From: Luidia sarsii
Lineage: Eukaryota; Echinodermata; Asteroidea; Paxillosida; Luidiidae
DNA length: 64,000 nucleotides
Assembly (NCBI GenBank): GCA_949987565.1
Contig: OX465113.1
Span: forward strand, 2,565,372-2,629,371
Direction of reading: 5' to 3'
Position 1 is the stretch's first letter; every line of letters starts with the position of its first letter. The position numbers and the translations under genes were made by a program. The notes under the pieces were generated by a model that searched no databases, had not been told where the DNA came from, and saw nothing but the letters and a program-made list of their open reading frames with translations. Positions 18,501-57,201 of the stretch are shown one piece after another.

Positions 18501-21500
18501 CCGTTGTTGAAAATTTCGCTTTCAATATTTGCAGTGTGTTTTTTGGAGACATTAGTTTCTACTCTTGCCTAACAGCACTCATGCTTGGCCCACACTACAG
18601 TAGGCTCAGTCTACGGCCCCGTGTCTTCCCACACAGATCTGGATTGGGATGGATGATCTGTGCATTGGATCCCAGCAGACTAGATGCTTGTAGGATGGCG
18701 GTGCTCAGATTGGTGGTCTAGATCCAGATCCGTGCGGACAAATGAAGACTTCCTTCACTGTTTGCTATGATGATTCTGGATAAATCTCAAAAGTTTTGAT
18801 CCTAGCAGGACCTTTCTCAAAGGCTCTTTGCCTTTGAGAAAGGTCCTGCTAGGATTGAAATGCCAGGCCCTCTAACTTTTGAGATTTATGTATTGCAGGT
18901 CATTTTAGCCGGTGAGCAGTTTGCAAAAGTTTTTGTATTACTTTCATGATTCTGGATAGAGCATTGCCCTAAGCACACATGTTCATGCCCTGTTCATGCC
19001 CTGGTCATGCTTTCTGCACAGCTACACAGCATCTGTCCTCTTGAATGGATTAATCTGTATCTCCCTGTGTGATGTGTGTGATCACTTGATCAGACAATGT
19101 ATTCATTTAGAAGTGTGTACATTATTTGTGACTGTGTACATGTACAAACAGAGGTGCCTTGAATCTGGGTTCAAAATCTATGTGCTATTAGTGAGACCAG
19201 TACTTGAAGTCATCTCCAAAAGCAGCCCCTCCTTGAGACAGATTCAAATTTGGTTCCAAAGTGCTTTTGCAAAATCGGAAAGCCAGAGGATCATCATAAG
19301 GCACTAAGTTTAAGACCAATGTGATAGAAGTCTTGGTTGCTTCACCCATATTTCAGGCTTGCCATTTGTAGTACATGAACACTAAACCCAGAATCCCCTG
19401 GTTATTGTCTAAACCTGTCATCGAGGCGGAGGTGTGCAAGTTTCTATTTCTACAGAATGCTTCCTGCTGTCTACCAAATTTTCTTCATTCACCTCCTGAA
19501 GACACTGTTTTCATTTTCACTTACACTCCTAAAACTCTGATCAGTTTCATTCTGCTAAAGCTACTTCTTCTGTCACCATGGATCCCTTGTTACCAATTCC
19601 AGACTAAATTCCCAGAGTTCCACAATCTTGCCTTGTTTCAGAAGTCTTAGGGTGAGGATGCAATCTACCTCAGCACAAAATAATGACACTCCTTAAAAGG
19701 GTAGACAAGGGAGTGGGTATTTGTTGCAGAAGATAACTTGCAGCATCTCCCGGAATGACATACATCTTTAGTACACTCTGAATTGTTCTCTTTTGCTTGT
19801 TAGACCTTTTCTGGTTTCTTTATCTGTCATCCACACGTCCATCTCATCTCAGAACCTGTCCCATCCTTGTTCCATCTTCACTTGTGTGTATGTGTTGAGG
19901 GTATGAGTCTGTCTGATTTTTGTTAATCCAAGCCTTACCAAAAATATTCAGATCTATGCAAGCATGCTCAGACCAATGCACACATGCTAAGAGCAACGTG
20001 CATGTGCTAAACACGAGCCAAGAGTACCTGGTATGTTTGCTGCCATGAAGTATCTCTAAATCTCTCATTGGGAAATTGGAGGGCCTGACGTTTCGATCCT
20101 AGCAGGACCTTTCTCAAAGGCTTTCTTAAAAGCAGAGGCAGATTCTGTCTCTTTGATTTTCAAATATTTTCTTTTTCACAGTTACCTGGTACATTCTGTA
20201 TGCAAAAATGTTGCAAACTGAACTCAAATGACCCAAAAGCGAAAATCACAAATTAGGAGGGCCTGATGTTTCGATCCTAGCATTACCTTTTCTGAAATGC
20301 AGATTCAATCATTCTGCCTTTGAGAAAGGTCCTGCTAGGATCGAAACGTCAGGCCCTCTAACTTTTGAGATTGATGTATTGCAGGTCATTTTAGCCAGTG
20401 AGCAGTTTGCAACAGTTTTTGTATTGACTTAATTGAAAAATTGGCAAAGAAAACTTTGACTGGACCAGGACTTGAACCCGAGACCTCTGGATTAACGTAG
20501 CAGTACTTTTCCATCTGAGCTATCCAGTCCTTAGATGGCGGTCTCAAATAGTTAACTAGTCTTTGCCAGAGAGGGGGGGGGGTGCCAATTAGATGCAATT
20601 CATCCATTAACTGTCGTAAATCTTTCATTTATTGATGATCCCGATGCCCCTTGGCCGTCTTGGCCGTTGCAGCTCCGTCGCCCCGAACCCCGAACCGGAT
20701 TCTCCGGCACATAGGCAACTACGGCACAGTGGCGCGGTCCAACAGCTTCACCGTCAACCAGCGCTCCTCCCTCTTCTCCAGCACCAGCAGCACCAGCCTG
20801 TCCGGGCCGGGCTCCCCCGACGACGACCTGGAGGGCTCCTTCCACAGCCGGTACGGCAGCGAGCGCTACAATGCCCACTCCTACAGCCGGGCCAGTCTCT
20901 TGGGCAATACTGGGATGGGCAACGTGCCTGTGGCTGGGCTGGGAGGACGTGTGCCTCCTAAGAAGGTAGGTACCAGTATGTGGCTGGCCAGTGGATAATG
21001 TTGCTTCCGGATTTCTGGAAATAGTGTGATATTATTAATATTTTTTTTCCCCATTTTTTCCCCCATTTTTTTTAATGTCAAACAGGTATCTCAAGCTGCT
21101 CATTTCTGTCTCTTAAATCCCTAAAAACTGAAGGGCGCCCCTGCCGTTTTTTTTTTTTTAATACTTTTTTCAATTTTTTTTTTTTTTAAATGTCAAACAG
21201 GTATCTCAAACTGCTAATTTCTGTCTCTTAAATGCCTAAAAACTGAAGGGCGCCCCTGCCGTGAATCTCTCGGTCGCGTAAGCGCTCACTCGCAGTCAGC
21301 TTAGGCCTTGTTTAAGGCAGGTCATCCCTTCCCAGTTCTGTCTGCTTTGTAAGTTCTAAGAGGCCATCGTGATATTTCAGCGCGAGAGACCAGTTTTTGT
21401 GTCCTCTCCAAAAGCAGCCATTTCTTGAGACGGATGCATTTAGTTCCAAAGTGTTCAAAAACCTTCACAAGCCTATGGTCTTTGGGATCCTGCTGGTCTG

Positions 21501-24500
21501 AAGCTTTGAGTTGACGTGCAGCTCTCTTTTTTTCCCCCTTTCAGCTTGTCCACGAGGAGATAGCGTTGCTCTTGGTGGTCTCCAATGGATCGGCCAAGGA
21601 GAAGGTGCTCAACCACGCCTGGTTCTTCTTTGAACTTATGGTAGGTTCACATCAGAAGAACCTTGAGTCTGTGTCAGTTATGATTCACGTGTCCATCATC
21701 TTGTGATAAATGCAAGGTTTGCGATGACACCGTGTAACACTTCTCTTTCAAGAAAGAGTGTGGCTCTAAAGAGAGTGTAGTTCCAGTATAATGTCCAATT
21801 TCCAAGGCAATGCCCTGGTCCAAGGTGATGTGCTAATTCCTTCTTTCTTTCTTTTTCTTCTTCTTTTTTAGGTCAAGAGTATGGCCCAACTTCTGGCCGA
21901 GACGGACCGCTTGGATATGCCCCGTAAGGGTCAGTTCTCCGAGGCCTACTATCAGGACATCAGCAACATTGTGGGCATAGTTACCACTGACATCGTCGCC
22001 AGGTATAGCAAGGTGAGAGCGGTTTATAGCACAATGGCATCCTGAGCTTCTTGAATTGATCTCTGGTATTGATAATGAGAAACTCTTCATTGAACATCAT
22101 ATACCCACATTGGATTACCCATAACGTCAGACAACTGGACACAGGCTTTGAAATTGAGTGTGTAGTTGACCGAGAAAAGTGTTTATCAAGGAGCTTTTTG
22201 TCAGTTATTTTGAGCTGATCTTGTCTAGGGAGTAATAGGTTTGCCGCGACACCATGTACAATTCTCTCTTTTGTGAGTATGTGTGGTTCCGAAAAGAACG
22301 GATTTAAACAAGGCATTCAATAGTGAAGACGAACAGAGTATACTGTTCAAAACATCAAGTTCCTCCGGTTCTTTTCGAAACCACACATACTCACAAAAGA
22401 CATAGTACTCTTTACTATTACTCTTGCAAACCTATTACTCCTGCTATTCTCACCATGAAAACCTTCCAATCTCATTTGATCTTGTCTTCTTCCTCTGCTC
22501 TCCAGGATGTACGGGCCATGCAGCTTCTTAATGCCAGCCTGGCCTTCTTCTTGCAGGATCTCCTGTCCCTCATGGACCGCGGCTATGTCTTCGCCCTCAT
22601 CCGCAACTACTGCAAGCAGGTAATGCTCATTCGGCTGTCGCCAAATCTGTGGACTGCCCACAAAGTGAAAGGCAAGATCTGCACCGCGTCTGACATTGGA
22701 CTCTGTCTCTTGGACTATTCCGTCAGACTCCCACTGGTGGTCAGAATGCATCGATGGTTGAAGCTGCTTGGCACGGCATGAAATTCCACCCAAGCTCCGC
22801 TTGTTCCTAGAATAGCCTGAAGCATACAAATCTTGGACTAAACAACATTCTGTCAATCAATCTATCAATCAATCAATCAATCAGTCAGTCAGTCAGTCAG
22901 TCAGTCAGTCAGTCAGTCAGTCAGTCAGTCAGTCAGGTAGTCAGTCAAACAGTCACTCAGTCAGTCAAACAGTCGGTCAGTCAGTCAGTCAGTCAGTCAA
23001 GTAGTCAGTCAGTCAGGTAGTCAGTCAGGCAGTCAAACAGTCAGTCAGTCAATCGGTTAATCAATCAATCAATCATAACTTTATTTCCAACATAAAAGTA
23101 GAATGGTTGGGAATCACTGAAAAGCAAAGCTTTTTGAGTAGCGATCCCCCCATTTGAATAGTACACGTATACAATTAATTAATGTAAACTAGGGAGTTAA
23201 ACAGACCACCAACATGTAACATCAGTAAGAATATGGGTATCTAAATTGAGAACCTGCCTAATAGCTGCAAACCTGAGAGAAAGGAAACACTCAAAAATTT
23301 CTTTGCAAATAGCTTTCTTGGATTCTTGTCTTGTAAGGTCCTACTAGGATTGAAGGAACAGGCCTGCAAACTTGTTAAGACTTTCATAATGTTTTTTTTT
23401 CATAGTCTTTGAACGTGTGTCTTTGAATGATTGATCAATTTATTTGGGCTTCTTCTGTTCTGGTAGGTTGCTGGAAAGATCACGGTGATGTCAGACCCCA
23501 CCAGCCTGGCCCAGCTTAAGCTAGACTTCCTGCGGATCATCGTGGGTCACGAGCACTACGTGACCCTGAACCTGCCCTTCCTGCACTCGGACATGACCTC
23601 CAGGCCCCCCTCCCCGACCCCCTCGGTCAGCAGCCTCTCCTCCATGATGTCCCTGGCCTCCAGCCTCCCTCCCGCCATCAACAAGGCCAAGGTCATGCAG
23701 CTCACCCCCGAGTTTCGCCAGCAGCACTTCCTGACGGGACTTCTCTTGTCGGACCTGGCCTGCGCCCTGCAAACTCTGTGAGTCCTGGCATTGATTTCAC
23801 AAAGCCTTGCTTTAAAGTCGGAGGGCCTGACGTTTCGATCCTGGCAGGACCTTTCTCAAAGGCAAAGTGACAAGGACATACACAGACAGTCAGGGAGGAA
23901 AGCCCTGACACACATGACAGAGGAAGGACAAAAGGGAAGGGAGTGGGATGCAGATGTACACATGAAGGGAGGGTAGATCTCCCATACAGTAAGTCCTTTG
24001 CCTTTGAGAAAGGTCCTGCTAGGATCGAGACGTCAGGCCCTCTAACCTTTCTCAAAAATCCTGCTAGAATCGAAACGTCAGGCCCTCTAACTTTTGAGAT
24101 TTCTGTATTGCAGGTCATTTTCGTCAGTGAGCAGTTTGCAACGGTTTTGGTATTAACTTCAAAGCCTTGCTTTGAAGTGAATTTAGCGCTGTATGCTCAG
24201 TGCTTTGCCCAATTGCCTGCTTAAAACTAGCCTATGTAATTGGAAAGAAGTGAGATTGGAATGTGGAAAGTTCACTGTGAAACCATGTGAGTGATCTGTT
24301 TTGGGACTCGGTTATGGCTTTGAGAAGAGCAAGTAACTCAACGTTTCTCACAGTGTGAGCTCTGGCGCGGTTCTCAGGAAACCTTCAAGTCTATGTCAAG
24401 GTCAATTCTTTGATTTCCTCTCTGTGCCTTGCAGGAACAGCAGCCTTCACCGACAGGCCATCGACACCGTCTGCAATCTCCTGCACACGCACGACGCCGA

Positions 24501-34300: not shown

Positions 34301-37300
34301 TGAGGTGGGGTACCAGACCGTCCTGGTCAGGATGTCTGCGCCTTCTTGCCAGAAACCAGGCTTGATCTCAGGCCCAGGCTTTGTCTTTGTGTCTAACAAG
34401 CAAAGGAAAAACTGACAGGGAACTTTTTGAACAAATTTAAAAAAAACATCTAAGGGCTGGATAGCTCAGATGGCAGAGCACTGATATGTTAATCCAGAGG
34501 CCTCGGGTTCAATCCTGGTCCAGTCAAAAATTCTTTGCCAATTTTTCAATCTTTTTTTCAGTGACAGACACAAAAACCTTAACAAATTCAAAAATTCTAA
34601 GGGTTGGATAGCTCAGATGGCAGAGCACTGGTACATTAATCAAGAGGTCTCTGGTTCAAGTCCCGGTCCAGTCAAAGTCAAAGTAAATTTTTCAATTTTT
34701 TTTTTCAGTAGCAGACACGAATACAGGAGGCATTTGGCTTTTGACACCCCAAAGATTCTACTATAACAAAGAACATGAACCAGTCTTTTCTGCTTTTTGA
34801 TAAACAGAAACGTAGCCAGAGACGGAGGCTCTGTTTGGGTTTGGACCCTGTCTTTCACGCTTCTCATTGCCTTACAGGCATTTCTAGGGTTATTCTTGAA
34901 GCCATGGATTGGGATTGAAATCTGCCACTGTCAGCTGGAGTTATGGGCCATGGTTTTGTTGTTGATGTTTTGATCTGGTTGCATGGTCATATGTGGTATC
35001 CCCTAGCCTTTTCAGACAGGGGAAAGGATAGGATAGGAGTCATAATTTTTTTGATCGATGTTGAATATTTACCAGGTACTGTAACTGTACCCCAAAACCT
35101 GCATTCTTGTGCACTTCAAAAGATCAGGCCTTTTCCAATTTGTGAAATTAATTTTACCCGGCAGAAAATCTCTTGCAACGTTCTGGAGGAGAGTGCCGTG
35201 TCAGACGATGTGGTGTCGCCAGATGAAGAGGGCATCTGCACCGGCAAGTATTTCACCGAGAGCGGACTGGTGGGCCTCCTGGAACATGCTGCTGCTTCCT
35301 TCAACCTGGTAAGGAGAGAGGAGAGTAACATTGCTGGGATTCGAACCAGTCACATCTACGTTGCTTGACAGGCAGTCTTACTGACTGAACTGTGAACGTA
35401 TCGCTTTCATGATCTTTGAATGAAATTAGTTGATCCAAAAAAAAATCAAATCAAAGTAGCGACAAAACTAAAAATGTAGTTGTTATTCATTCATTCAAGA
35501 CAAATTTGACTGGCCAGCCAAGTAACCAAATGATTAATTAGATTCATCACTGGATCAGTTGCATGTCAGTCGAGGGAGGTGCACACCATCTTATTCCTTG
35601 TATGTTGGACCTCATTTGTTACCATTGTGTTATTATGTATTTGCCTATGTTCTAATTTGTAATTTGTTGACAGACAATGGTGCACTTGGAAACAGCCATG
35701 TTAAACACCTTATAAATGTTATGTATCATTATTATTAATTAGTCGATGAATCCACCAGTTAGCTAGTCGTTGAACTCAATCACTTGATTGTGATTAAGAT
35801 CAGCTGCCATATTTTGATGAATATGCTAATGCTAGTATTTTTTGGGGGGGTTGTTTCCAGGCTGGCATGTTTGAAGCTGTGAATGAGGTGTACAAGATTC
35901 TGGTCCCTATCCACGAGGCCAACCGAGACTACAAGAAGCTGGCCATTATCCACGGCAAGCTGCAAGAGGCCTTCAACAAGATTGTCCATTTGGTAGGTGA
36001 CTGGCTTGTGAGATAGATACTCCAGTGTGCGACCTAAAATACAACCATGCCGATTACTTTACTTGCGACCAGTAGCTAGTTTCATAGAGCCGCTCACTCA
36101 CCAACATTTGTTTTTAAGCATGACAAATTGTCCTCAAAATAGTCAGGTTGTCAGCTTAAGTTCCGCTTGTAGTTCATTGAAGTAATCGATATTAGCATTC
36201 AAGTCAAGTACAGCAAGCATCAAGTGAAATATGCTTGGCAATCTCGTTTTAACCAGCGAAGATATTTCTTGCTTTGCAAATTTTCACGCTTAAGCAGCTC
36301 TCTAAAAATGGTAATTTTTGAACCTCGGAGAAACATCAATTCAAACTTTCACTGGCATGGACATCGTCCTGAGGCTGTCGTATTGAAATTCATGATTTCT
36401 TTTGTCATCAATGTCAGTAAATCCAATATCGTATGGTCATTGTCTTTGTCAATGGTCACTCTTGTCACCGTTGCCTTCAATTGTCACTCCCTCTGTCCTA
36501 CACTCAGGGCGGCAAGCGTCTTTGGGGGACCTTCTTTCGCGTCGGCTTCTACGGCAGCAAGTTTGGAGACATGGACGGCGAGGAATTCATCTACAAGGAG
36601 CCAGCCATCACCAAGCTGCCAGAGATTGCTCACAGACTGGAGGTGAGCCCACCGCACACTCTTAACGCTCTTTTCGCACTACAGGGCGAATCCCCGGGGA
36701 ATTCCTGGGGATTTTTTACCCCACCAACACCCCGGCAACCATTTACACTGGACCCACTTTGGAAACTCCCGGTGACCCTATTTCTCCGTGGGAATCATAA
36801 AACCCCAGGGGTTTTCTCCTTCTACTCTATTCCAGAGCAGGGGTAATAAATTCCCTGGGGAAAAGCTTTATCCCCGGGGATTTCTTCGATAGTGGGAATA
36901 GACAGACCCAAATCCCCGGGGCATTTTCGAGAAATTCCCGGGGATTCAATCTAGCGTGAAAGCCCCTTAAGTGCATGACCGTCCTGAATAATCATTCTTT
37001 GTTTGAAGACTGGTTTCCGAATAGGTTTGAATTTGCCTGTCGGAGCAGTGTGGTGCTGTACTGATATTCCTTGCCACTCTGGCCGCGGTTCCGATTTCAA
37101 CCCTCAAATCGGACTGAAGATGCCTCGTCTTGGTTTTGCTGTTATCAGAGTTTCTACAGCGATCGTTTCGGCGCCGAGAATGTGGAGGTGATCAAGGACT
37201 CCAACCTTGTGGACAAGAGCAAACAGGACCCGGACACGGCCTACATCCAGGTCACCTATGTGGAGCCATACTTTGACTTCTACGAGACCCTACAGAGACC

Positions 37301-41469: not shown

Positions 41470-41640
41470 GAATCTTAAAGGTTAGAGGGCCTGAGATGTC
41501 GATCCTAGCAGGACCTTTCTCAAAGGCAGAGAAAGGTCCTGCTAGGATCGAAACGTCAGGCCCTCTAACGTGTGAGATTTATGTATTGCAGGTCATTTTT
41601 AGTCAGTGAGCAGTTTGCAACAGTTTTTGTATTAACTAAA
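41470..41640. mobile_element. Foldback element family A
   Basis: Clean copy: GGTTAGAGGGCCTGAGATGT arm, AGGCAGAGAAAGG centre, right arm to GCAACAGTTTTTGTATTAAC. In the DOCK 3' region. Confidence 0.85.
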
Positions 41641-45010: not shown

Positions 45011-48000
45011 CTAAGTCCACTGTCCAGCACGGACATAGTCTGACAGTGCTGGCTGGGACTGGGCACGATAGTTAGGGCTAGGATTAGCCGCTGTGGCTCG
45101 GTGCGGGTGCATCGACCCTTCAGGAGCTGGAGCTGGAGCGCTCATTGCACTCGCTCGAACATAGTCGGCTACCGGTACTTGAGAAGCGAGAGCCGGGGGT
45201 TCTCGGTTGATGGGGTTTGCTCCAGGGCCTGCACCCGTGGTCAAGGCGCCCCCCTGGCTCGAAGCATTCCCACCGACCTGGACGTAGCCAGATATGGGTG
45301 AGCTGGAAGACGGTCCCCGAGGGTCGGGTCTCGTCTCGGAGCGCTGATGAGAGGACGTCGGAGTTTCCTCGGGCGGGTCTGAATGATTTTCAGCGTGATC
45401 CAGCTGATCGATGCCTTCTGAATCGGAACCGCCTCTCAGTCCGGCCAAGACATAGCCAGCCAATGATTCCTGCGGATTAGGGGACTGACGGTCACCGCTG
45501 CCTCTTATTTCATGGGCCTGATAATCGGCTGATGTACCCTCTCTATGCGATGTATTTCCACTGATGTGGACGTAGTCAGACACCGGTCTCTCACCGGAGC
45601 GAGAATCTCGATTCAGGGGTAAATGGTTTGCCTCTGGAATCTGATGAGAGGGCGCGGTTCTCACTGAACCAGGAGGATATTCGGATTCATGGCGACCAGC
45701 ACCATCTTGGTCCGAAGCACTCACCGGCGTCCGATTCAGAACAGAGTCCGGCACTGGTCTGCCAGAAGAAGATGACCGGTGTTGACGACTTGGACCCAGT
45801 GCTGAGGTCTGGGGAGAAACCTGGACATTCCCTTGGCCCAAGGCATTTCCGCTGACTTGCACATAGCCAGACACTGGTCTCTGGGTCGCGCTTGCTTCAG
45901 TGTCTGAGTTGGCTCTCATTTCTGGTGTCTGCTGGGAGGGCAGGCCGTCCCTCTGACCCAAAGCACTTCTAGATTCAGTGTGTTCAGTGCCCACTGGGTC
46001 TGACAGGCTTAGCCCAGCCTGGACGTAGTCAGACACTGGTCTCTGAGGATTCGAATCCCGATTCGGACGAGGACGTGGTCTTTGGGCCCCTTGAAAGGGT
46101 GGAGGGTCATCTTGGCTAAGAGCATTGCCACTGTCTTGGACGTAGACAGTTCCTGGTTCTTGGGAAGTGGGTGTCCGATGCCCATCGGGACTAGGTCTTG
46201 TCTCTAGATCTCGAAGAAGGGGTGGAAGACCCTCTTGGGGTAAACCACTTCCGCCGACTTGAACGTAGCCGGATACCGGCTGTTTAGGGATCGGTGCTCG
46301 CTGACTAGAGTCGGGATCTTCTGCCGTGATCTGGTGTGAGTAATCGGTACCCCCTTGGCCGTGTCTAGAGGTGGCTTGTTGGTCTTGGCGAGGCGATTCT
46401 GGGGCACCGCCCGACCTAACGGCTCCAGCATTAGCCTGACTGAAAACCAAAGGGAACTGTAAAGGACCAAGAGATGATTGACTGTCATCACGAAGAGTTG
46501 ATTTTAGAAAATCGTCCGGGTTCGAAATATTACCTGCTTGAGTGTATTCGGATGCACATTGTTCAGATGGTGAATCGTTATCATCATTGTCGTTCTGATT
46601 GTTGAGCTCATCATGAATGGGTATTGTAAGAGTGTGGTTTTGTACTGCAGCTGCAGAATTCAGACACTCTACTGTATAGGGATTTCCCGATAGAGATTCT
46701 ACAGGGATAGCAACGTAAGGTTGGCACACTTGTGATGACGTCGTAAGAGAAATCGGACGTTCGGCGCCGAAATGGGTGTATTCTGTTATGCCGGGACTGT
46801 GTGGCGTGCTTCTGGTAGCCCGGACTTGCTGGGCTAGGAGTGGAGAGCCGAGCGATGGCGAGGACGAAGCAACATCGGCCACTGGATCTGGCTTGCTGTC
46901 TCGTTCGGACTGAAGGTTAGATGTTGCTTCTGATTGAGGGAGAGCTACACACGCTGGAACAGTTGCTCCCTGGAGGCAATAGCCATCTGATAATGGCACT
47001 CTGACAGAACTTGAAGGCGGGGTGAAGGGACTGCTCGATACTGGTACAGCCGATGAACCTGGAAGACTGGATAGGAACGCTGGACTTGGTTTGGGTGGTT
47101 GGGTATCGAGCGCGCCTGGCATTGTGGTATACGGGTCTACAGATCGAGGGGGAGCTTCATTCGAGGGGAGGTGATCGTTATTGAGCTGCCCCGAAGCCGT
47201 CCCATTCAATTCAGTCACCACGGTGTATGGTGCGGCGGGACCTGCCTGCGAATCTGGGCGAGATACGTCCCCGGCAGAAGCGAAGGAGGGGACGTGACTT
47301 TCTGGCTGCTGGATCAGAGACTGAGCAGGACCAGAAAGTGGGACAGACTGCTGAAGGTGATCTGTGTGCCTGGTATTACTGACTAAAGGACCCTGATTCC
47401 TTACGCCCTGCTCTGGGCGGGAGGCCGCATTTTGTGTCAGGGTGATGGATGACTCTGGTGTTTGTTGGTAGGGTTGGGGAAGCGGTAAAAGGCTCCCGGA
47501 GGGCCCGGTTGACTGAATCTGTCCTTGGAGTCTCGGGGGCATGGCTGTCAATTCTGACATCTGGGTGTAGGGTGATACCGCTGCTCTGGGACTAGACTGG
47601 ACAGGTTTCGTAGTGCTCACGGACTTGGATTGAGGGCCCGTCGTGGTCTTACTCTGTGTCAGGGCAGACATTTCTGGTGCTTGGCTGTAAGGTGACACTG
47701 GTGACACAGGCGAGCAAAGCTTGGTGGGGTTGAGTGTATTTAGAGGTCTTGCGGCCCGAGTCTCATTCGAACCGAGCCCTGGGCCATGGCCTAGAGGTTT
47801 GGTGCCCTCTTGACCTCCTTGCTGGCACCTGCGCATCACAGGTGGCAAGGATGACGCCTGGTTGTTGGGAGAGACAGCCAAAGGGGAGTTAGACGGGTGG
47901 GGGACAGAAGTAGGCCTACTCACTGGTCTCACACAGGGCGAGGGAGTGGCCATTCGGCTCGGCTGCTGAACAGGGCGAGGAAGGGATGCCAAAGCTGACA

Positions 48001-48610
48001 CCTGGGTGTAAGGAGACACCCCGGTGGAAGAGGATCTCCTCAAGGAAGACCTCTGTTGGCCAGTGAGACCGGCCTCTTGATGTCTGCCATTCGTCGCAAC
48101 CGGGGGAGCATTACGGTCACCGTTAGGGACCTCAAAGGAAACCCTCTTCAAGGGGGACTTCAAGGGGCTGGACTGCGAGGCAGAGGGGGTGCTCTTACGC
48201 GGGGGCGGGACCTGTCCTACCAGCGTGTACGGGCTGACAGCATCCGCTGTCGTCCCCATCACACCCGCTCTCCTGAAGTCCGTCCGGGCAGCGAGCGCGG
48301 TGGCTGGATCGTCGAGGAAGACGTCGTCGTCGCCCTCCTCGGTGAGGCTGGTCCTGTCCCGCAGGCTGCTGAAGTCCGGGCTCTCGCTCTGCGGCGACGG
48401 GGGCACGCCGCTGTCCCGGCTCTCGGAGCGACTGAAGCGGACCGTCTGGGTCTTGTGGTCCAGGTCCAGGCTGTAGGAGATCTGGATGGCCTCCCTGGCC
48501 AGCTCGCACTTGCCCGCCATCAGCTGGACGAGGTCGTTCTTCTTCGTCTCCTGGATCTCGTCGAAGTGCTCCCTCTCGCATTTGGTGGTGCTTCTCGAGT
48601 TTTTGTTACC
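45011..48610 (-). CDS. Receptor terminal exon: 1199-residue cytoplasmic tail with 26 tyrosines in repeat motifs
   Basis: One uninterrupted 3600-nt exon after CTATACAG. The first 45 residues are charged and could hold Box 2. RDSGVPPSPQS follows, a DSG-type phosphodegron resembling those of EPO/prolactin-type receptors. The remainder is Ser/Pro/Gln-rich and probably disordered. Tyrosines come in two families: N-terminal SPYTLV, SPYTQV, SPYSQA, SPYTQM, APYTVV, DPYTTM; C-terminal SGYVQV (three times), VYVQD, SDYVQA, SDYVHI, AGYVLA, ADYVRA, SDYVRA. Most have a small or hydrophobic residue at +3, many Gln at +2; only YCLQ, YSHQ and YRAQ fit the strict YxxQ STAT3 motif. Human gp130 has a tail of about 277 residues, so this one is more than four times longer. 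Confidence 0.9.
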   Translation of the reverse strand, partial: GNKNSRSTTKCEREHFDEIQETKKNDLVQLMAGKCELAREAIQISYSLDLDHKTQTVRFSRSESRDSGVPPSPQSESPDFSSLRDRTSLTEEGDDDVFLDDPATALAARTDFRRAGVMGTTADAVSPYTLVGQVPPPRKSTPSASQSSPLKSPLKRVSFEVPNGDRNAPPVATNGRHQEAGLTGQQRSSLRRSSSTGVSPYTQVSALASLPRPVQQPSRMATPSPCVRPVSRPTSVPHPSNSPLAVSPNNQASSLPPVMRRCQQGGQEGTKPLGHGPGLGSNETRAARPLNTLNPTKLCSPVSPVSPYSQAPEMSALTQSKTTTGPQSKSVSTTKPVQSSPRAAVSPYTQMSELTAMPPRLQGQIQSTGPSGSLLPLPQPYQQTPESSITLTQNAASRPEQGVRNQGPLVSNTRHTDHLQQSVPLSGPAQSLIQQPESHVPSFASAGDVSRPDSQAGPAAPYTVVTELNGTASGQLNNDHLPSNEAPPRSVDPYTTMPGALDTQPPKPSPAFLSSLPGSSAVPVSSSPFTPPSSSVRVPLSDGYCLQGATVPACVALPQSEATSNLQSERDSKPDPVADVASSSPSLGSPLLAQQVRATRSTPHSPGITEYTHFGAERPISLTTSSQVCQPYVAIPVESLSGNPYTVECLNSAAAVQNHTLTIPIHDELNNQNDNDDNDSPSEQCASEYTQAGNISNPDDFLKSTLRDDSQSSLGPLQFPLVFSQANAGAVRSGGAPESPRQDQQATSRHGQGGTDYSHQITAEDPDSSQRAPIPKQPVSGYVQVGGSGLPQEGLPPLLRDLETRPSPDGHRTPTSQEPGTVYVQDSGNALSQDDPPPFQGAQRPRPRPNRDSNPQRPVSDYVQAGLSLSDPVGTEHTESRSALGQRDGLPSQQTPEMRANSDTEASATQRPVSGYVQVSGNALGQGNVQVSPQTSALGPSRQHRSSSSGRPVPDSVLNRTPVSASDQDGAGRHESEYPPGSVRTAPSHQIPEANHLPLNRDSRSGERPVSDYVHISGNTSHREGTSADYQAHEIRGSGDRQSPNPQESLAGYVLAGLRGGSDSEGIDQLDHAENHSDPPEETPTSSHQRSETRPDPRGPSSSSPISGYVQVGGNASSQGGALTTGAGPGANPINREPPALASQVPVADYVRASAMSAPAPAPEGSMHPHRATAANPSPNYRAQSQPALSDYVRAGQWT

Positions 48611-51600
48611 CTGTATAGATTTGAACAAAGGAAAAATGGTAATGCTATCAGTGATATATCATGTCGCCTTCATCATGTATTTTTTTTAAAACAAACCTAA
48701 ATAACAACCTTGATCCATACATGCTTGTTATTATCCCGCCCAAGCTGCCTTTGTTTTTTGTTTTTCAAGCAGCTAATCGGGCGAAACACTGTGCATAACT
48801 CCACTTCTTTTAGGAAAAACCCTCATTTATATTCATCCTGTGCTTAATTAGTCTCCCTCCTAGTAACTTCCTAATGATTCTATAGTGGTGGGTTGTTATA
48901 TGAAAATGATGAACACTCATATTCTGATTCATGACACAGCTAAATCAGACCACCAACATTCCGTGAATTGAAGAAGTCGGGCCTGAAACCGAGAAGGGTT
49001 TATCAAAGATGAGGCAGTTTCTAATTTTTTTTTGGGGGGGGGGAGAACAGGCTCAGAATAGGCCCCTATTCGATTATGCTGGTCTCATTTTAGCGTCCAG
49101 ATACTGTACAAGAGGATGCGGTAATGAACAAAACCAATGGCGCTAGGCCTCTGAAATCTTTGAAACCGAATGTAGATTAATGTCAGATTTTTTTCTTTAA
49201 TGAGGCAAAGGGAACAGGTGCATACCCCCGTCTTGGAGAGGTCCACCACTCCCTCGGCGAACTTGGGCCCGGGAATCGGCCTGATTGAAGAGAACTTCCT
49301 CCAGACGCATCCGATGACGGTCAAGGAGAAGATCAGCAGCGAGACGGAAATTAAAACAGCCTGCAGGATCACGCCCCCAGCTGGTGAGAAAGGGTGATGT
49401 CAATGGATTAAGTCTGTATCAGGTTTGAGTGATACGAACTTGATACGAATGTCACTGGATGAATTTAAAGTGAACACAAAAACTGTTGCAAACTGCTCAC
49501 TGACTAAAATGACCTGCAATACAGAAATCTCAAAAGTTAGAGGGCCTGACGTTTCGATCCTAGCAGGATCTTTGAGAAAGGTTAGAGGGCCTGACGTCTC
49601 GATCCTAGCAGGACCTTTGTGAAAGGTTAGAGGGCCTGACGTTTCGATCCTAGCAGGATCTTTGAGAACGGTTAGAGGGCCTGACGTCTCGATCCTAGCA
49701 GGACCTTTCTCAAAGGCAAGGACATACTCTATGGGAGATCTACCCTCCCTTCATGTGTACATCTGCATCCCACTCCCTTCCCTTTTGTCCTTCCTCTGTC
49801 ATGTGTGTCAGGGCTTTCCTTCCCCTGACTGTCTGTGTATGTCCTTGTCACTTTGCCTTTGAGGAAGGTCCTGCTATGATCGAAACGTCAGGCCCTCTGA
49901 CTTTTGAGATGGATGAATTTAACTGCAGTAATTAACGATGAGGCGTTTGGTTTGTTTGTGTTATCCACTGATGGACGCACAGAGAGAGGAGTCGAGTTGA
50001 CTTCCTGAAGCTGATAACTTGAAAACTCCTTTCTTAAATTCCCTGCTGTATCTTTATTGTCATCTGTTTGGGTTTTTTGTTCCAGGGTAGTCGTATTGCG
50101 CTGAGGCGTCGCTAAACCACTCTGCAAGTTATGTTGCAGAATAACCAGTGAGCAAAATATTGATGTAGTTCCATTCCTTGACGCATATACATGTACATGT
50201 TCATATGCCAGGGCACTCGGTATTAGGCAGTCGGTCATCAGCTTAATTCATGTGTCCGTGGTGATCTTTTGCTGTCCCAGAACCTTTAAGCAAAGTTTTT
50301 GAATTTCAGTTTGGATTTTAGAACTTAAAACAAAAGTCTAGGTAAATTATGACTTTGCCTAGGTGATGGTTGGGCCCACTAGACGTTTCAAAGTCCACCG
50401 CACACACTACACGGCGTGTATGGGAAAAAAAACCATCGTAGACTTTAAAAGAAAAGCATTTTCATGAGTAGTTGTCAGAGGGGTGGAAAGGCGGGCCGTT
50501 TGACCCTGAACAATGACTTTGCTCACCGCTATCCACCGTCTTGCCGTGCGCAGGCCTGGAGTCTGGCCCCGTTCCCTGCGAGGTGAAAGCTGTCAGCCAG
50601 ACGGTGTAGTTGGTGGAAGCCTCCATGCTGCTCAGTGTGTACGCCAGGGTGTCGGGACTCGTCACATTCTGATACTGCATTTTTCCTATTCGTAGAGGAG
50701 GTGGAGGTAGCTCGTCAAAAAAGTATAAGTCAGCAGTTATATCAAACAGATCTTACAAATTTGCTTATTGAATTAAACGCCACAATATAGATATCCACAA
50801 TGTACAACTTTCTCTAAGAAGCTGAATGCCTTTGGGAAAGGTCCTGCTTGAATCAACACGACAGACCTTCACGATTGTTCTTACTTTCCCCGAGTCTTGC
50901 CTCCTCTCCTGATATTGATGGCAACTTGTTTCATCATGAAAACTGTTCAGAAAGGTGATGATGGTTCTTGATGGGTTGGAATAGCGTTCTCTTTCATCAA
51001 CAAATTCCCCTCACAGGGATAACATCGCATTTCCCCGAACCTCTCACCAAGCGCCTCTTCTTCCGACGGCCGACTCAGTGCGGGGTGTTCACTCACCTGA
51101 GCACGGTTTGAGTGTGACGGCATCGATGTAGGCACTGCTCTTGCAGAATGAGATCAGGTAGCCGGCCAGTCTGCCGTTGGCGTTCTGGCTGGGCAGCTGG
51201 CTCCACGTCAGGGCAAGTCGGTCGTGTTGGTTGGGCACAGGCTTGACCGTGAGGTCAGCTGGTGCGGTATCTGGTACTGCTCACACACACACACACACAC
51301 AAAAGCAACGAAGGGACAGCAAATGAAGGGTCGACGAAGTAAGAGTACCTACAATGCTTGATGGAAGCTTTCTTCATGACTTTCAGAAACACCTTCGTTG
51401 CTGTGTAACTAGTTATGGTGGTGGTCTGGGAAACAAAACTAACTGTAGAGGGCCAAGTGAAAGGTAGTTATGGTGGTGGTCTGGGAAACAAAACTAACTG
51501 TGAAGGGCCAAGTGAAAGGTTTGCTGGCCACTGAATCTGTCAAATAGCCCCCAAGTCGGACTGGACTCCATCCAGTGGATCATCCAACAGAGGTAGAAAG

Positions 51601-54600
51601 CCACTCAACTACAAAGACAATTTCCCAATATAATGGTCTCCAGCAATCAGAAATCGCTCAACTGATGCAAGGTTGGAGACAGAGAACTCAACTATCTGCT
51701 CCGTCTGCGACCGATTGGTGATGATGAAAGCTAATGATGAGATCTGAGAAGGTCGTGATATTGACCTCTAGAGGACCTCTCCTTCCGGTTCCAAGTTGTG
51801 TTTGATCACGTGCAGCTATACAGAGAGGAATCGACAGCCACAGGTACGTCAAGTCTTCCGCGACCTACCTCCTTCCAAGGTGCGGACTCCACCGGCCACA
51901 TACTGAAGTCCGCTATCGCCGCGGGAGTTTCTGCACTTCACCCCGATCTCGTACAAGGCATAGGTCTCGAGGCCCTCCAAGAGGCAGGATTGCCTGCTGG
52001 CGTCGAGGGTGGCTTGCGAATCTCTGGAAACGAGCGGGGAACCAATTAAAGAGCGTGGAATTACAATCTGGAGGTCCTTGATTCCCCCAGAAGCTGGACT
52101 TCATTTGGGTCCTGATGTGACGTGCTCGGACTAGCTTCCTGCTTCATATCAGAAACCCGGGTTCTGTCATCTCCCACAGCTTCCATGATTTCGTTCTGCC
52201 AGCTGCTTTCTCTCTGGATAACAGAGGCCGACCTCTAAACAAACCACCGTTAAGAGGAAGGGCAATGTCCAGCTAGTTCTTGGATGATCTAGATATACGT
52301 AGGGGAGCATATGAAATTGAGCTTGGAGCCTAGTTTTGGAGGGATCCATGAATGGGCATTAAGAGAGCAGTGCCGTGAGGGACGGTTACATTTTTTTTTT
52401 GCGGTATCGTGGTCTACATACTCGTCACTGTTGGTTATTCTCCACACCACGGTGTAGCTCTGCAGGTAGCCGTTTGGCTGGTCTGGGTCCATCCACTCCA
52501 CCCGGATGGAGGTTGTAGAGTCAGCCGTCGCTCTGACATTGCTGGGAGCAGTCGGTGCTGTACATAGGAAGAACAGAGACAACGAAAGATGTGACGAGAC
52601 GAACGGGATCTTACAGTCGGCATTTCAGGACGTTTAAGTTTGATAATCGATCCTCCTCCTCACCAACTTCCTTGTCCCGTCCCTCTCGCCCCCACTCCTC
52701 TACCCCTGCTTCTCTTCCTCGCCCCCTCATCTTCGTCCTTCTCATACTCATAAACCTCACCATCCTCATCGTCATCACCGATATCGGCAAAATTATATCA
52801 CCCTAAACGAATTTAATGGCTACGGCTTCCAGATAGATTCGAGTTCATGGAAACTCTAGCATCAGTAGCTGCAGCCATTTCCCCCGTGCTTTTCCTAGCC
52901 GCAGCCAATGAACCAGAGACAGCCCAGCAACGAGGGTGGATAGAGTTCTCGGAGCGTGTACAATCAGTGCAAAAGAGGAGGCCTTACCCGTGGTGAGATC
53001 AGCCACGTCGACCACAGACCACGGCCCCACACCGGCCCGGTTGAAAGCAGCAACTTTGATGCGATAACCCGAGAACCTCTCGAGGCCTGTTAGAAGAAAA
53101 AAAAGACCAGTCGGCATGATGTCAAGGGCTATGATTTCTCTCCGTGATTCCAAGGAAGAAAGAAACTGGAGTGTACTCAATCCTCGCCTGAAATGGAAGC
53201 TCAATCGAGGTATGTCTCAGATCAGCGCAACTTTCTTCGCTTACTTTAAATTTCCCTCAAAAGTTTGTTTCTCTATATATTTCATGAGGAGCGATGTTGT
53301 CTCAGTAAAATCCCTTGGCTGTATTGTTGACGCTGGCTGAAGGCTCACCTGGGGAGAGGTACCAGTTCACCTGTCCGGTAGTGTTCTGGCGCACGAGTTC
53401 TCCTTGTTTCACCTTGATATGATATCCCAGGAGGTGCCCGTTGATGGAATCCTGCGGTAGGCTCTGCAGAGGAGAAGAGGCAGAGACAAGATCTGGTTGA
53501 TATCCCGCTTGTCAGCATTTTGCAGTTTGAAAAATCGTGTGTTTTTATGTTTTTAGGCTTCTCATTGGAGACCATGGCAAACCACGACGCCGGCAAGCTC
53601 ATGGTAAACTACTCAGTCCTTGACCATAGTTGTGATGGTCGTAACCTCCCTCCTTCCAATGGGCGAAGACTTCAAACATCAAACAGTCAATCGATCATAA
53701 TTGCAAGAGATACCTGCTGGCAGGACAGACAAAGGGGACTATTTTGTGAGTACTTTGATAAAGTTCCCGATTCCAAAAGGTAGTAAGTCCCTTCCATAAA
53801 NNNNNNNNNNNNNNNNNNNNNNNNNNNNNNNNNNNNNNNNNNNNNNNNNNNNNNNNNNNNNNNNNNNNNNNNNNNNNNNNNNNNNNNNNNNNNNNNNNNN
53901 NNNNNNNNNNNNNNNNNNNNNNNNNNNNNNNNNNNNNNNNNNNNNNNNNNNNNNNNNNNNNNNNNNNNNNNNNNNNNNNNNNNNNNNNNNNNNNNNNNNN
54001 CCAGCCGAGACTCTGAACCGTACCACTCCTTGGGACGGGCCCACTCCACCGTCAGGCTAGTCTCGTGCTCCAGTCGGGACACCCTCACATTTTCCGGCGT
54101 GTTCACGACAACTGGACGGTGCAGGAACGTGTGCAGTATACGCAGGAGAGATGGACAGAGTAACGGGGAAAGGTGGGAATGATTTTGAACAGGATATTCG
54201 GTGAAAAAAAAACAATACAGACTTTCAGAAACGCCTTCAAAATTCGAGCACGAGGCTGAACTATACCGGTCGGTCTCGAGTCTTAGTCCCTGGCGCGATC
54301 AAAATCCGAAATGGGAGAGTGCTCACAGTGATCCATAAGCATCGTGCTTGTTTTGTGCAGTACAACAAAAAAATCTCTCCAAGGAGGGCAGTAGCTCGGC
54401 TTACCGTCGGTGTAAGGATGAAAGGTCGTCTCGGCAATGGCCTGACCGAGACTGTTGGTGGAGATGACCCGGACCCACTGCTCCGTGCCCGTGTTGTAGT
54501 TGATGCCAATAAAGCACGTCTGGTTCCCATAGTCGGGACACTCCGTCCAGTCGCTGAGCATACTGGAACAGATTAAAGAGAAGAAAACCCACGATTCTTA

Positions 54601-57201
54601 TTGCGATTCCTCGTTGAAATCAAACCAGGACGACCTACAAGACATGTCGGTCGATCGATGCACATTCCCACCCAATTTTATGCTATTTAGATCAGGCTGT
54701 AGTGCTGACACTTAGAGAAAAAAAATTCCAAGAAAAGTAAAGGAAATTTGACTTCAAAAGTAAAGGAATACAGACTTTTAAAGTAAAGGAAAACTGACTT
54801 CAAAAGTAAAGGAATACAGACTTCAAAAGTAAAGAAAAACCGACTTCAAAAGTAAAGGAAAACTGACTTCAAAAGTAAAGGAAAACTGACTTCAAAAGTA
54901 AAGGAAAACAGACTTCAAAAGTAAAGGAAAACTGACTTCAAAAGTAAAGGAAAACAGACTTCAAAAGTAAAGGAAAACAGACTTCAAAAGTAAAAGAAAA
55001 ACTTACTTCAAAAGTAAAGAAAAACTTACTTCATAAATAAATAAAGTATTTTGAAGACTGTATGTGTGGAAGCGCTGGGCGTTATTTTTTTTTTTAGGAT
55101 GACCAAAGATCTATTATATTAGCCTACTCTGAGTAACTTTTTAGACTTTTTAGGCATGGCTTACAATTCAAACTTGTGCGTGGTGCGAAGGTTAGTGGGA
55201 ACGGTCTCCTCCCAGTGACACCGGTACACCTCGGGCGAAGGAATAACGCATTCCAACTTGACCGGCTGTGGCTCAACTGTCGGCAAAGGGGGAACGAACG
55301 AAACAAACAAAATAATGTGGAATCGCTCAGGGCAGGATTTCAAGAGGAGTGTTGAAAGGTTTCTCTCCAGTAGATCCTCGTGGCATCGGCGTCTATACCG
55401 TGGTAGTCGAGATTCAGAACAATAATTTTAGGAGGGTTTGCGGTGACACCATGTATAAGATCTCTCAAAGAAGAGGTGTGGTTCTGAAAAGTTCGACTTG
55501 TGGCCACTTGTCGGCGACTATGTAAGCCATATCCGCAGAAAATGAGTCGGAGCAAGTTTGGAAAAAAACAAAAATTTAATGTTTGCAAAACTGAGATACT
55601 AAACTTGTCTCAAATGAATTGAGTAAGGTTTACCCTGAAAATGTGGACAATTTCACAAGCACCTTTGTTGGGATTCAGATTCGCCATCCATTCTGTGAAT
55701 TCGGGACAGCTAATGCCTATGCATACCTCTGTGCTGTGTCCGGTCTGATGAGACAACATTTCATACAACCGACATGCAAGACTTCGGTCTCAATTGAAGG
55801 AGGAACGGGGGAAAGAAAAAGACTCACTGCCAACTCTGACGACAGCGGTCCGCTTGTCGAAGAAGCCGTCCCCGGGGAAGAGACAGTGGTAGTTGGCCGT
55901 GTCGCTGAAGCCCACGCCGGCCCGGACCAACCGAGACACGGCGTCGTTGATGGCGCCGTACCAGTCAGGGGGCAGCGGCGACGAGTTGCGGTTCCAGATG
56001 ACGTCGCCGGCCGTCAGGCCGCCGTTGGCGGCGGGATCCAGGGTGCAGGTCAGGCTGAGGTTGGCACCGACCGGCAGGATAGCCTCCGAGGGCTCGACGG
56101 AACCTGGAGTTTAGGAATCAGGAGGTGGAGAGGAGGGTCGCGTAAAGGCATGCTGATTCCTGGAGTGCTGAGGTGTTTTGGTTGGAAAGACCGAAAACAT
56201 TCCAACCACATCCAGCTGTGATGCCTAACGTGTTGGTGAACCTAAACACGCTCAGAAAATTTGACACCCCCGTTGAACATTAGCTCGGAGTTCTCGATCT
56301 CGGAGTTACCGATCATTCTGTAGAGTCACTTTCCATCGTTTCCTTTTGATTCCTCCTTTTGTTATATACCCTTATACCCATACTGCTCGCCCTTCCCTTC
56401 GATCCAACCCTGGTCTGTCTGCTAGCTTTCCACCATTGACCCCTTCCCTACTGCTTGCCCTTCCCTTTGATCTCACCCTGGTCTGTCTACCAGCTTTCCT
56501 CCCTTCCCTACTCCCTGCCCTTCCCTTTGATCTCACACTGGTTCGTCTACCAGTTTCCCTCCTTTGATCCCTTCCCTACTGCTTGCCCTATTCCTTTGAT
56601 CTCACCCTGGTCTGTCTACCAGCTTTCCTCCTTTGATCCCTTCCCTACTGCTTGCCCTTCCCTTCGATCCAACCCTGGTCTGTCTACCAGCTTAACTCCT
56701 TTGATCCCTTCTCTACTGCTTGCCCTTCCCTTTGATCTCACTCTGGCCTGTCTACCAGTTTCCCTCCTTTGATCCCTTCCCTACTCCCTTCCCTTCACTT
56801 TGATCTCACCCTGGTTCGTCTATACCAGCTTCCCTCCCTTTGACCCCTTCCCTACAGCTTACCTTTCCCTTTGATCTCACCCTGGTCTGTCTACCAGTTT
56901 CCCTCCTTTGATCCCTTCCCTACTGCTTGCCCTTCCCTTTGATCTCACCTTGGTCTGCCTACCAGCTTTGTCCATCTTAAAGATGTCATTCATATCTGTT
57001 ATACCTTTTCCTCGATGTTCTCTGGTTTTTGTCCCTGCCATACTCCCCTTGCAAAAGGTCCTGCTAAGATCGGCATTCTAGCCCTCTAATTTGTTCAGGT
57101 TGTTGTAAAATCCCATACTGCGCAGGTTTCTTACCCACAAGGCCATGCGCGGCAGTGGTAGAAGTCAGCAGCACAAGAAGATGCAGTGTACAGATGCCCA
57201 T
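45011..57201 (-). CDS. Class I cytokine receptor, gp130 (IL6ST)-like architecture, giant cytoplasmic tail; interrupted by an assembly gap
   Basis: Single-pass receptor expected to bind a helical cytokine and signal through JAK/STAT. Exons, read on the - strand (high to low): 57201-57135 signal peptide; 56103-55828 Ig; 55276-55165 and 54562-54405 first half of the cytokine-receptor homology module; 54111-54001 start of its second half, cut by the N gap; 53463-53349 and 53086-52988 FN3; 52557-52422 and 52023-51869 FN3; 51276-51097 and 50685-50527 FN3; 49380-49226 transmembrane and Box 1; 48610-45011 tail and stop. All visible phases join, and domain borders are phase 1 as is usual for FN3 genes. 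The order Ig + CRH + three FN3 matches gp130 and G-CSFR. About 1770 residues are visible; at least one or two exons are missing in the gap. Start chosen at the ATG opening a good signal peptide. Confidence 0.88.
49226..49380 (-). CDS. Receptor exon: transmembrane helix and Box 1
   Basis: Encodes AGGVILQAVLISVSLLIFSL followed by TVIGCVWRKFSS, one clear hydrophobic helix with a basic stop-transfer end, then IRPIPGPKFAEGVVDLSKTG. RPIPGPK is a textbook Box 1 (compare PPVPGPK in prolactin receptor), the JAK-binding proline motif of class I receptors, at the usual distance from the membrane. Donor GTATGC in phase 0 meets the tail exon at 48610. Confidence 0.9.
49475..49915. mobile_element. Foldback element family A, long form with a tandem arm array
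   Basis: Four successive left arms (GTTAGAGGGCCTGACGT(T/C)TCGATCC) at about 49535, 49583, 49627 and 49670, then the internal loop inverted relative to 23815, then one right arm. In a receptor intron. Confidence 0.85.
50527..51276 (-). CDS. Receptor exons: third membrane-proximal FN3 domain
   Basis: Exons 51276-51097 and 50685-50527. They encode PADLTVKPVPNQHDRLALTW then NANGRLAGYLISFCKSS, and LSSMEASTNYTVWLTAFTSQ then GTGPDSRPAHGKTVDS. The first acceptor has two in-frame choices (51276 after GCAG, or 51270 after CCAG) and lacks a pyrimidine tract because a TG repeat stands there. The two cysteines (FCKSS, KPCS) could form an extra disulfide. Confidence 0.8.
51279..51302. repeat. (CA)n repeat beside a receptor splice acceptor
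   Basis: On the coding (-) strand it reads (TG)n then AGCAG, so it replaces the pyrimidine tract of the exon at 51276-51097. Confidence 0.9.
51411..51521 (-). repeat. Two tandem copies of a 54-bp unit
   Basis: AGTTATGGTGGTGGTCTGGG through GGGCCAAGTGAAAGGT appears at 51411 and again at 51465, two or three mismatches. In a receptor intron. Confidence 0.9.
51869..52557 (-). CDS. Receptor exons: second membrane-proximal FN3 domain
   Basis: Exons 52557-52422 and 52023-51869 joined in phase 2. The first encodes APTAPSNVRATADSTTSIRV then EWMDPDQPNGYLQSYTVVWR; the second encodes LEGLETYALYEIGVKCRN then SRGDSGLQYVAGGVRTLEGG. Conserved W, NGY and Y-x-I-x-V positions are all present. The exon after TTTCCAG completes the GAA codon left by the GA at the first exon's end. 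Confidence 0.82.
52988..53463 (-). CDS. Receptor exons: first membrane-proximal FN3 domain (opening strands missing)
   Basis: Exons 53463-53349 and 53086-52988. They encode SLPQDSINGHLLGYHIKVKQ, then WYLSPGLERFSGYRIKVAAF and NRAGVGPWSVVDVADLTT, the N-G-x-L-x-G-Y and Y-x-I-x-V-x-A-x-N-x-x-G patterns of FN3. The first exon begins in phase 0 in the middle of the fold, so an upstream exon with the first strands should exist in or near the gap. GPWSVVD is the usual FN3 G-strand region and not a WSXWS box. Confidence 0.8.
53801..54000. other. Assembly gap, 200 N
   Basis: Exactly 200 N, probably a placeholder of unknown true length. It removes the end of one receptor exon and, judged from domain phases, at least the second half of the CRH and the first strands of the next FN3. 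Confidence 1.
54001..54111 (-). CDS. Receptor exon: start of the second CRH FN3 domain, cut by the gap
   Basis: After CGTCCAG the exon reads VVNTPENVRVSRLEHETSLT followed by VEWARPKEWYGSESRL, a normal FN3 opening (P-x-x-V/L ... L-x-V-x-W) in the place of gp130 domain 3. It runs into the N block at 54000. The WSXWS box that normally ends this domain must lie in the gap if present; it is not visible anywhere else in the window. Confidence 0.75.
54405..55276 (-). CDS. Receptor exons: first FN3 of the cytokine-receptor homology module
   Basis: Two exons (55276-55165, 54562-54405) encode one domain of about 90 residues. It has the four diagnostic cysteines: LECVIPSPEVYRCHW (C-x9-C-x-W) and ECPDYGNQTC (C-x7-C), then QWVRVISTNSLGQAIAETTF and HPYTD. 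The pattern follows domain 2 of human gp130 closely (CEW motif, paired cysteines, NALG turn). This is the strongest single argument for the class I family. The intron between the exons contains a 23-bp tandem repeat. Confidence 0.9.
54733..55040. repeat. 23-bp tandem repeat, about 13 units
   Basis: GACTTCAAAAGTAAAGGAAA plus A(C/T)T/ACA, spacing 23. In the receptor intron between the two exons of the first CRH domain. Confidence 0.9.
55828..56103 (-). CDS. Receptor exon: N-terminal Ig-like domain
   Basis: A phase 1-1 exon of 92 codons with Ig-fold hallmarks: LSLTCTLDP (first Cys), VIWNRN (core Trp), then GFSDTANYHCLFPG, the D-x-A-x-Y-x-C signature, and a closing RTAVVRVG strand. In gp130, G-CSFR and LIFR an Ig domain likewise adjoins the homology module and takes part in ligand contact. 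GC content is clearly higher than in surrounding introns. Confidence 0.85.
56370..56965. repeat. Pyrimidine-rich tandem repeat, about 9 units of 61-68 bp
   Basis: Units of TTGCCCTTCCCTTTGATCTC, CCTGGTCTGTCTACCAGC and TTTCCTCCTTTGATCCCTTC. In the first visible receptor intron. On the coding strand it is purine-rich. Confidence 0.9.
57135..57201 (-). CDS. Receptor exon: signal peptide
   Basis: MGICTLHLLVLLTSTTAAHG followed by LV: short polar start, a Leu/Val-rich core and small residues before the likely cleavage after the Ala-Ala-His-Gly stretch. Donor GTAAGA follows in phase 1, fitting the next exon. The frame stays open upstream, so an earlier ATG is possible, but only this one gives a classical signal peptide. 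Confidence 0.7.

Follow-up and report, generated by a model that had tools for sequence, protein, structure and literature searches.

A 64,000-nucleotide stretch of the Luidia sarsii genome (contig OX465113.1, positions 2,565,372 to 2,629,371; hereafter the window) carries on its minus strand the gene for a putative class I cytokine receptor with a long, tyrosine-rich cytoplasmic tail. The tail behind box1 is encoded by a single exon (48610-45011) of 1199 open codons and 26 Tyr that ends in a TAG stop. This agrees to the coordinate with the original prediction, and the two motif families it described are both present, as six VSPYTQV-type sites in the N half of the exon (47126..48238; exon Tyr 128, 201, 308, 348, 462 and 494) and nine PVSGYVQVSGN-type sites in the C half (45023..46276; exon Tyr 782, 823, 862, 916, 1013, 1053, 1109, 1150 and 1192). 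Behind the acceptor CTATACAG/GGTAAC (slashes mark splice borders), the exon joins in phase 0 with the upstream exon at 49380-49226, which encodes a transmembrane stretch followed by SIRPIPGPKF and closes on the donor AAGACGGGG/GTATGC. This join supports the assignment of the tail exon to the receptor, as does the union of the same parts in three orthologue database models. A paralogue of the tail was sought and rejected: the exon is the sole match in the 471-Mb genome at E-values up to 0.01 among the best candidates.

Thirteen exons were followed by eye back to the start at 57201. The gene is interrupted by 200 N (53801..54000); outside this gap an AG or GT stands at every exon border, and the phases agree wherever both sides are readable. 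Exon 1 (57135..57201) supplies the start Met and a signal peptide, MGICTLHLLVLLTSTTAAHG, judged by eye, and ends G/GTAAGA in phase 1. Exon 2 (55828..56103) encodes the N-terminal Ig-like domain D1, with matches to Ig_3 (1.3e-4) and Lep_receptor_Ig (3e-4) that both fall under the curated cut-off. The cytokine receptor domain D2 is split between exon 3 (55165..55276; CVIPSPEVYRCHW) and exon 4 (54405..54562; ECPDYGNQTCF). Exon 5 (54001..54111) begins D3 and is truncated by the gap, into which comparison with the orthologues places the WSEWT-bearing remainder of D3 and the first part of D4. Three fibronectin type III (FNIII) domains follow: D4 in exon 6 (53349..53463; entry phase hidden by the gap) and exon 7 (52988..53086; ending GPWSVV), D5 in exon 8 (52422..52557) and exon 9 (51869..52023), and D6 in exon 10 (51097..51276) and exon 11 (50527..50685), with Pfam fn3 matching in exons 8, 9 and 10. 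Exon 12 (49226..49380) holds the membrane span and the box1-like IPGP, and exon 13 (45011..48610) the rest of the tail.

The class of the receptor is supported by several comparisons. A phmmer search of PDB that used the first 241 residues as query finds CRLF1 (1.6e-9) and gp130 (4.3e-9). A four-species profile of the N-terminal ectodomains has gp130 (chain 1i1r) as its best PDB match, with an E-value of 2.6e-26 across D1-D3 (profile positions 31-326), which supports an Ig domain followed by D2-D3 in the gp130 order. Downstream, Pfam fn3 matches three stretches of the ectodomain (6.5e-31), and the membrane-proximal region is made up of the three FNIII domains and one membrane span, the latter judged by eye. 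The D2 cysteine pattern with C-x-W is present in the two D2 exons, and its Cys and Trp show no variation among the four aligned species. The position of the WSXWS motif lies within the 200 N of the window; the three orthologues read WSEWT there. Finally, the box1 pattern PhiP.P, as listed in Table 2 of PMC7444064, stands behind the membrane in all four tails. Taken together, these features support the proposed assignment to the class I cytokine receptors with the build of gp130: an Ig domain, a cytokine-binding module and three FNIII domains, followed by a membrane span and box1; 'gp130-type' here refers to build and profile match and makes no claim of orthology to vertebrate gp130.

Three orthologues, all from sea stars, were found: Patiria miniata LOC119722541 (1947 residues), Asterias amurensis (2102 residues, marked LOW QUALITY) and Asterias rubens LOC117297550 (1710 residues). 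All share the same build, with tails of 1012-1406 residues and 23-32 Tyr. Measured from the basic residues that follow the membrane span, the tails run to 1224 residues with 26 Tyr in the window, 1282 with 27 in Patiria, 1406 with 32 in A. amurensis and 1012 with 23 in A. rubens; series of four values below keep this order. The counts for both Asterias species are rough, given the LOW QUALITY mark on one model and a possible truncation of the A. rubens model within its repeats. A first protein search was swamped by FNIII proteins and gave no orthologue among its best 8000 candidates. With the tail as query (E-values up to 1), one search listed Patiria only, among 3031 candidates, and another only the three sea stars, among the best 8000 candidates by shared words; neither is evidence of absence beyond sea stars. 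Long tails with conserved tyrosine motifs thus recur in every orthologue found, so the refuting case named in the original prediction, orthologues lacking such motifs, did not arise.

The tail is predicted to be disordered. Modelled by AlphaFold with the three orthologues, the window tail has a mean predicted local distance difference test score (pLDDT) of 35.3, with 1161 of 1199 residues below 50; a single helix, of moderate confidence, is predicted next to the membrane at tail residues 14-46. A folded domain was considered and rejected on this score and on Pfam, which finds no match on the tail exon at E-values up to 1. Some conserved features lie outside the tyrosine sites. Behind box1, all four tails share K[TK]QT..F.RSES.DSG.PPSP, represented in the window by FSRSESRDSGVPPSP (48392..48436), and the next shared element is a site of the form YT.VG[QE]. 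SSP.KSP and then KRVSFEV (48128..48148; KKVSFEI in Patiria) are common to the window and Patiria and missing from the Asterias tails, which are without VSFE; the latter element resembles the PP1-docking RVxF motif. The shared block contains a DSG phosphodegron pattern (Table 2 of PMC7444064) with 2, 1, 1 and 1 matches in the tails, which is weak alone, as 45, 247, 280 and 180 of 2000 shuffles reach these counts. A relationship between the conserved FSRSES block and the FSRSES in the gp130 tail was considered and rejected: shuffled gp130 reaches the local score in 249/500 (window), 45/500 (Patiria) and 54/500 (Asterias) trials.

The residues near Tyr are biased alike in the four tails: position -3 favours V, -2 favours S, -1 favours P (or D, G), +1 favours T/V/I, +2 favours Q or K and +3 favours V/M/I/A. 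The core pattern Y[TVI].[VMIA], defined after inspecting the sites, accounts for 15/26, 18/27, 18/32 and 13/23 Tyr against an expectation of ∼0.6 in each tail (0.67 in the window), and none of 2000 shuffles reaches the count in any tail; these tests treat repeat copies as independent, so significance is overstated for recent duplicates. What is non-random is the context of Tyr, which makes up 2.2% of tail-exon residues. At -2, Ser occurs more often than any other residue (12/26, 17/27, 20/32, 13/23). Core sites occur about once per 70-80 residues, and once per 47 inside the Asterias repeat. For the window, Patiria and A. amurensis, which made up the gap and site-match tables (A. rubens was left out), 30 of 48 gaps between core sites measure 32-66 residues (7/14, 13/17 and 10/17), with medians of 65, 45 and 50 residues.

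Each genus has expanded a different repeat: PVSGYVQVSGN (SGYVQV) in the window, VSPYTK/Q (SPYTK) in Patiria and a 47-residue unit with SPYVQVPEP in Asterias. The same core has therefore been amplified separately in three genera. Among the units chosen in the window, the best match lies in another genus for five of six N-half sites and within the own tail for eight of nine C-half sites; across all Tyr, it falls within the own tail for 10/26 in the window, 20/27 in Patiria and 24/32 in A. amurensis. LLSDYVQI and PIADYVVT of Patiria are possible seeds of the C-half family. As a separate observation, the number of 47-residue SPYVQVPEP repeats differs between the two Asterias models. Either the A. 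rubens model is truncated, or species of one genus, and perhaps individuals of one species, may differ in how many docking sites they carry.

Comparison of units within the window exon indicates that the motifs, and not the spacers, are under constraint. Nei-Gojobori counts over positions -3 to +3 of 15 of the 26 Tyr, chosen by eye as units, gave a proportion of nonsynonymous differences (pN) of 0.246 and of synonymous differences (pS) of 0.622 for the nine C-half units, and 0.288 and 0.713 for the six N-half units. Flanking spacers gave pN of 0.67-0.74 and pS of 0.69-0.73, and random codon sets 0.724 and 0.762 (standard deviation 0.037). Low pN beside near-saturated silent sites indicates that the amino acids of the motif have been kept, while the spacers behave like random codon sets. 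As the units had been chosen by eye, the test was rerun on all 26 Tyr with the Tyr itself left out. The flanks then have a pN of 0.625 against a null of 0.726 (standard deviation 0.009; 0 of 2000 random sets as low) and a pS of 0.705 against 0.763 (standard deviation 0.015), and this pN is lower than that obtained with any of 18 other residues as the centre, the next being Met at 0.692. The Asterias pair points the same way: outside the repeats, the two tails are 91% identical over 795 aligned residues and have 16 Tyr in common, and the three unshared Tyr are all non-core. Constraint on the motif is thus supported.

Which SH2 protein would read such sites was approached with the motif list in Table 2 of PMC7444064. 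In gp130, YXXQ serves STAT3 and YXXV serves SHP-2/SOCS3, according to PMC1963337. The STAT3 motif YxxQ is unenriched in the four tails (3, 0, 1 and 1 against expectations of 1.95, 2.79, 3.85 and 2.60). STAT3 was accordingly set aside as a general reading, together with STAT6, STAT1, Grb2 and NPxY: Y..F occurs 1, 0, 0 and 0 times, Y.N 0, 0, 1 and 0 times, and Y..P (the STAT1 motif) and NPxY in none of the four tails. The loose STAT5 pattern Y[VLTFIC], in contrast to these, covers 19/26, 23/27, 24/32 and 16/23 Tyr, a count reached by 0 of 2000 shuffles in each tail. By its residues, the core motif is closest to this loose STAT5 kind and not to the YxxQ of gp130. Y..M is also enriched (2, 8, 4, 5); we read this as M being among the residues allowed at +3, although p85 may bind some sites.

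The genome encodes a STAT5-like STAT. A STAT gene lies on C6 at about 19059000-19072000 (STAT_int, 6.2e-10); this single STAT_int match is a lower bound for STAT genes, and the STAT_bind profile had no match in the genome, its control likewise being without one. Against PDB, the SH2 domain of the C6 gene has STAT5A as its best match (3.8e-25), followed by STAT6 (2.7e-18) and STAT3 (3e-12). The exon behind this SH2 domain reads EKLPHSGDGYVSSVLVSTIPQL and includes DGYVSSVL, which we take to be the place of the phosphotyrosine through which STATs dimerise. DGYVSS and the receptor's SGYVQV are identical at -1, 0 and +1. Since the SH2 domain of a STAT must read both its partner's site and the receptor's, this agreement favours a STAT5/6-class STAT. 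The sequences put the chances of that reader at somewhat better than even, with the C-SH2 domain of SHP2 or a SOCS protein as the main alternative.

The best explanation, to which we give a probability of roughly 0.6, is that the tail acts as a multivalent docking array for SH2 proteins, most likely a STAT5/6-class STAT, so that one receptor loads many STATs. On this view, a disordered tail grew by repeated duplication into a series of equivalent sites for phosphotyrosine docking, all built on the core Y-[T/V/I]-[often Q or K]-[V/M/I/A]. The kinase for these sites would be a JAK bound to box1; SH2 proteins, most likely this genome's STAT5/6-class STAT, would bind them once phosphorylated; and one activated receptor could thereby load many STATs, with a gain in signal as the expected effect. 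The proposal that the tail is an SH2 docking array is thus partly supported, by conserved motifs in all three orthologues and by constraint on the motif in the window; the motif is not the YxxQ of gp130.

The alternative that survives best is that the sites attract negative regulators (SHP2/Csw, SOCS) or form a platform of the immunoreceptor tyrosine-based inhibitory motif (ITIM) kind, which we consider unlikely without dismissing it. The SHP-2/SOCS3 site of gp130 is itself of the YXXV kind (PMC1963337). The loose ITIM [SIVLT].Y..[VIL] is enriched (6/26, 5/27, 14/32 and 8/23, reached by 4, 16, 0 and 0 of 2000 shuffles), as is the loose SOCS pattern in three tails (9, 1, 14, 8), though not in Patiria, where it matches one of 27 Tyr. 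An orthologue of SHP2/Csw is encoded at C18:6541000-6545500, with both SH2 exons much like those of human SHP2 (C-SH2 exon, E-value 6.3e-38). Its N-SH2 exon retains NLQGVDAE, the G of which is presumably the glycine at alphaA2. Owing to that glycine, the SHP2 N-SH2 domain needs a hydrophobic residue at -2, as described in PMC7337045, yet Ser is the commonest residue there, and [VIL].Y..[VIL], the rule as scored, fits 0/26, 0/27, 0/32 and 0/23 sites, or none of the 108 Tyr. The original prediction named STAT or phosphatase molecules as recruits; the STAT side gains from the enrichment of the loose STAT5 pattern, and the phosphatase side loses ground on the N-SH2 rule.

Several observations weigh against an array read by a STAT. 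The strict STAT5 motif pYxxL is at or below chance in the four tails (0, 1, 0, 0), and the loose pattern is called promiscuous in PMC7444064. GYV, which comes nearest to the STAT's own site, is clearly enriched in the window only (4/26, 0 of 2000 shuffles; 1/27 in Patiria, reached by 82 of 2000; 0/32 and 0/23 in Asterias), and the reader could be another SH2 protein. Eleven of the 26 window Tyr stand outside the core. The pS of the C-half units and of the Tyr flanks is somewhat below random, so their likeness may partly reflect shared descent or codon choice. Repeat number is fluid and minisatellite-like, and one A. rubens repeat reads SPFVQVPEP, with F for Y. The last two points also fit neutral tandem expansion in a disordered tail, which would yield an array without dose-dependent function; so do the different repeats in each genus and the near-identical 47-residue Asterias repeats, unequal in number between the two models. 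Such drift is improbable, since the window motif has been kept beside random-like spacers with synonymous sites near saturation, the Asterias pair holds on to its core tyrosines outside the repeats, and the same core is retained in three genera. A sorting array of YxxPhi endocytic signals is the least probable reading: Y..[LMVIF] is enriched (11/26, 16/27, 19/32 and 14/23; 3, 0, 0 and 0 of 2000 shuffles) and YxxPhi motifs overlap those for STAT and SOCS (PMC7444064), but the preference at +1 (T/V/I), a position that YxxPhi leaves free, is the strongest bias around Tyr in the window and Patiria and one of several such biases in both Asterias, and Ala is frequent at +3 (6/26 window, 5/27 Patiria), where YxxPhi wants a bulky residue.

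A bolder proposal, less likely than not, is a sea-star 'amplifier' receptor. Evolution would tune its gain through the number of equivalent STAT docking sites per chain, with every lineage duplicating its own version of the core, and tens of STATs could be loaded, perhaps even clustered, on a single receptor dimer. The shared core in three genera makes up what seems to be a natural experiment, and constructs built on it could ask whether site number sets the gain, duration or threshold of JAK-STAT signalling. Sea stars are deuterostomes known for regeneration, and the array opens a view on their cytokine signalling.

Elsewhere in the window, a DOCK-family gene seems to sit beside the receptor on the plus strand: an exon at 34919-35365 (+) matches DHR-2 lobe A (PF06920, 1.8e-5) with 25.5 bits against a cut-off of 26, and an open frame at 7967-8530 looks DOCK-like by eye and has no Pfam match. 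The 32-base repeat GTTAGAGGGCCTGACGTYTCGATCCTAGCAGG occurs in 14 copies at up to three mismatches (for example at 49536-49702, 24015-24091 and 41481-41569), four of them as a 45-base tandem in the intron preceding the membrane exon. Similar readings occur on C18 and C6, and it is perhaps a dispersed mobile or satellite-like element. Four matches resemble transfer RNAs (tRNAs; 34455-34674 on the plus strand, 12328-12400 and 20457-20529 on the minus strand), two of them inside a 147-base tandem repeat at 34449-34718, and could be tRNA-derived elements.

In a literature search that covered titles and abstract openings and few subscription journals, no class I receptor with a tyrosine array and no study of these sea-star receptors was found, in line with the claim that no such receptor had been described. 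p130Cas and IRS are familiar examples of proteins whose disordered regions repeat a single tyrosine motif many times; they are adaptors and not receptors and use YxxP and YxxM. To our knowledge, no tyrosine array is known in Domeless of Drosophila. Domeless is likewise an invertebrate gp130-like receptor, partnered by the JAK Hopscotch and by a STAT (PMC8226699). Among echinoderms, a sea urchin IL6R-like receptor has been placed in a tree (PMC13203501), and a possible ligand lead is the IL-6-like molecule of another sea star, Asterias forbesi, in a 1996 report cited in PMC8226699. IL-4R alpha and the prolactin receptor also have disordered tails with several SH2 motifs, and the 575 residues of IL-4R alpha make the longest human class I tail (PMC7444064). 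Counts for the tails of 14 of the 29 human receptors give at most 10 Tyr (PRLR) and at most one core motif per tail; the effect of more sites is hard to study in mammals. The closest likeness is to gp130 (IL6ST) and the group 2 class I receptors, which share the Ig domain, cytokine-binding module, three FNIII domains, membrane span and box1. The tail of gp130 has 277 residues and 6 Tyr, four of them in YxxQ and none in the core motif, whereas that of the window has ∼1224 residues and 26 Tyr, 15 of them in the core, with YxxQ unenriched. The sea-star tail is a real and constrained elaboration of a known receptor class.

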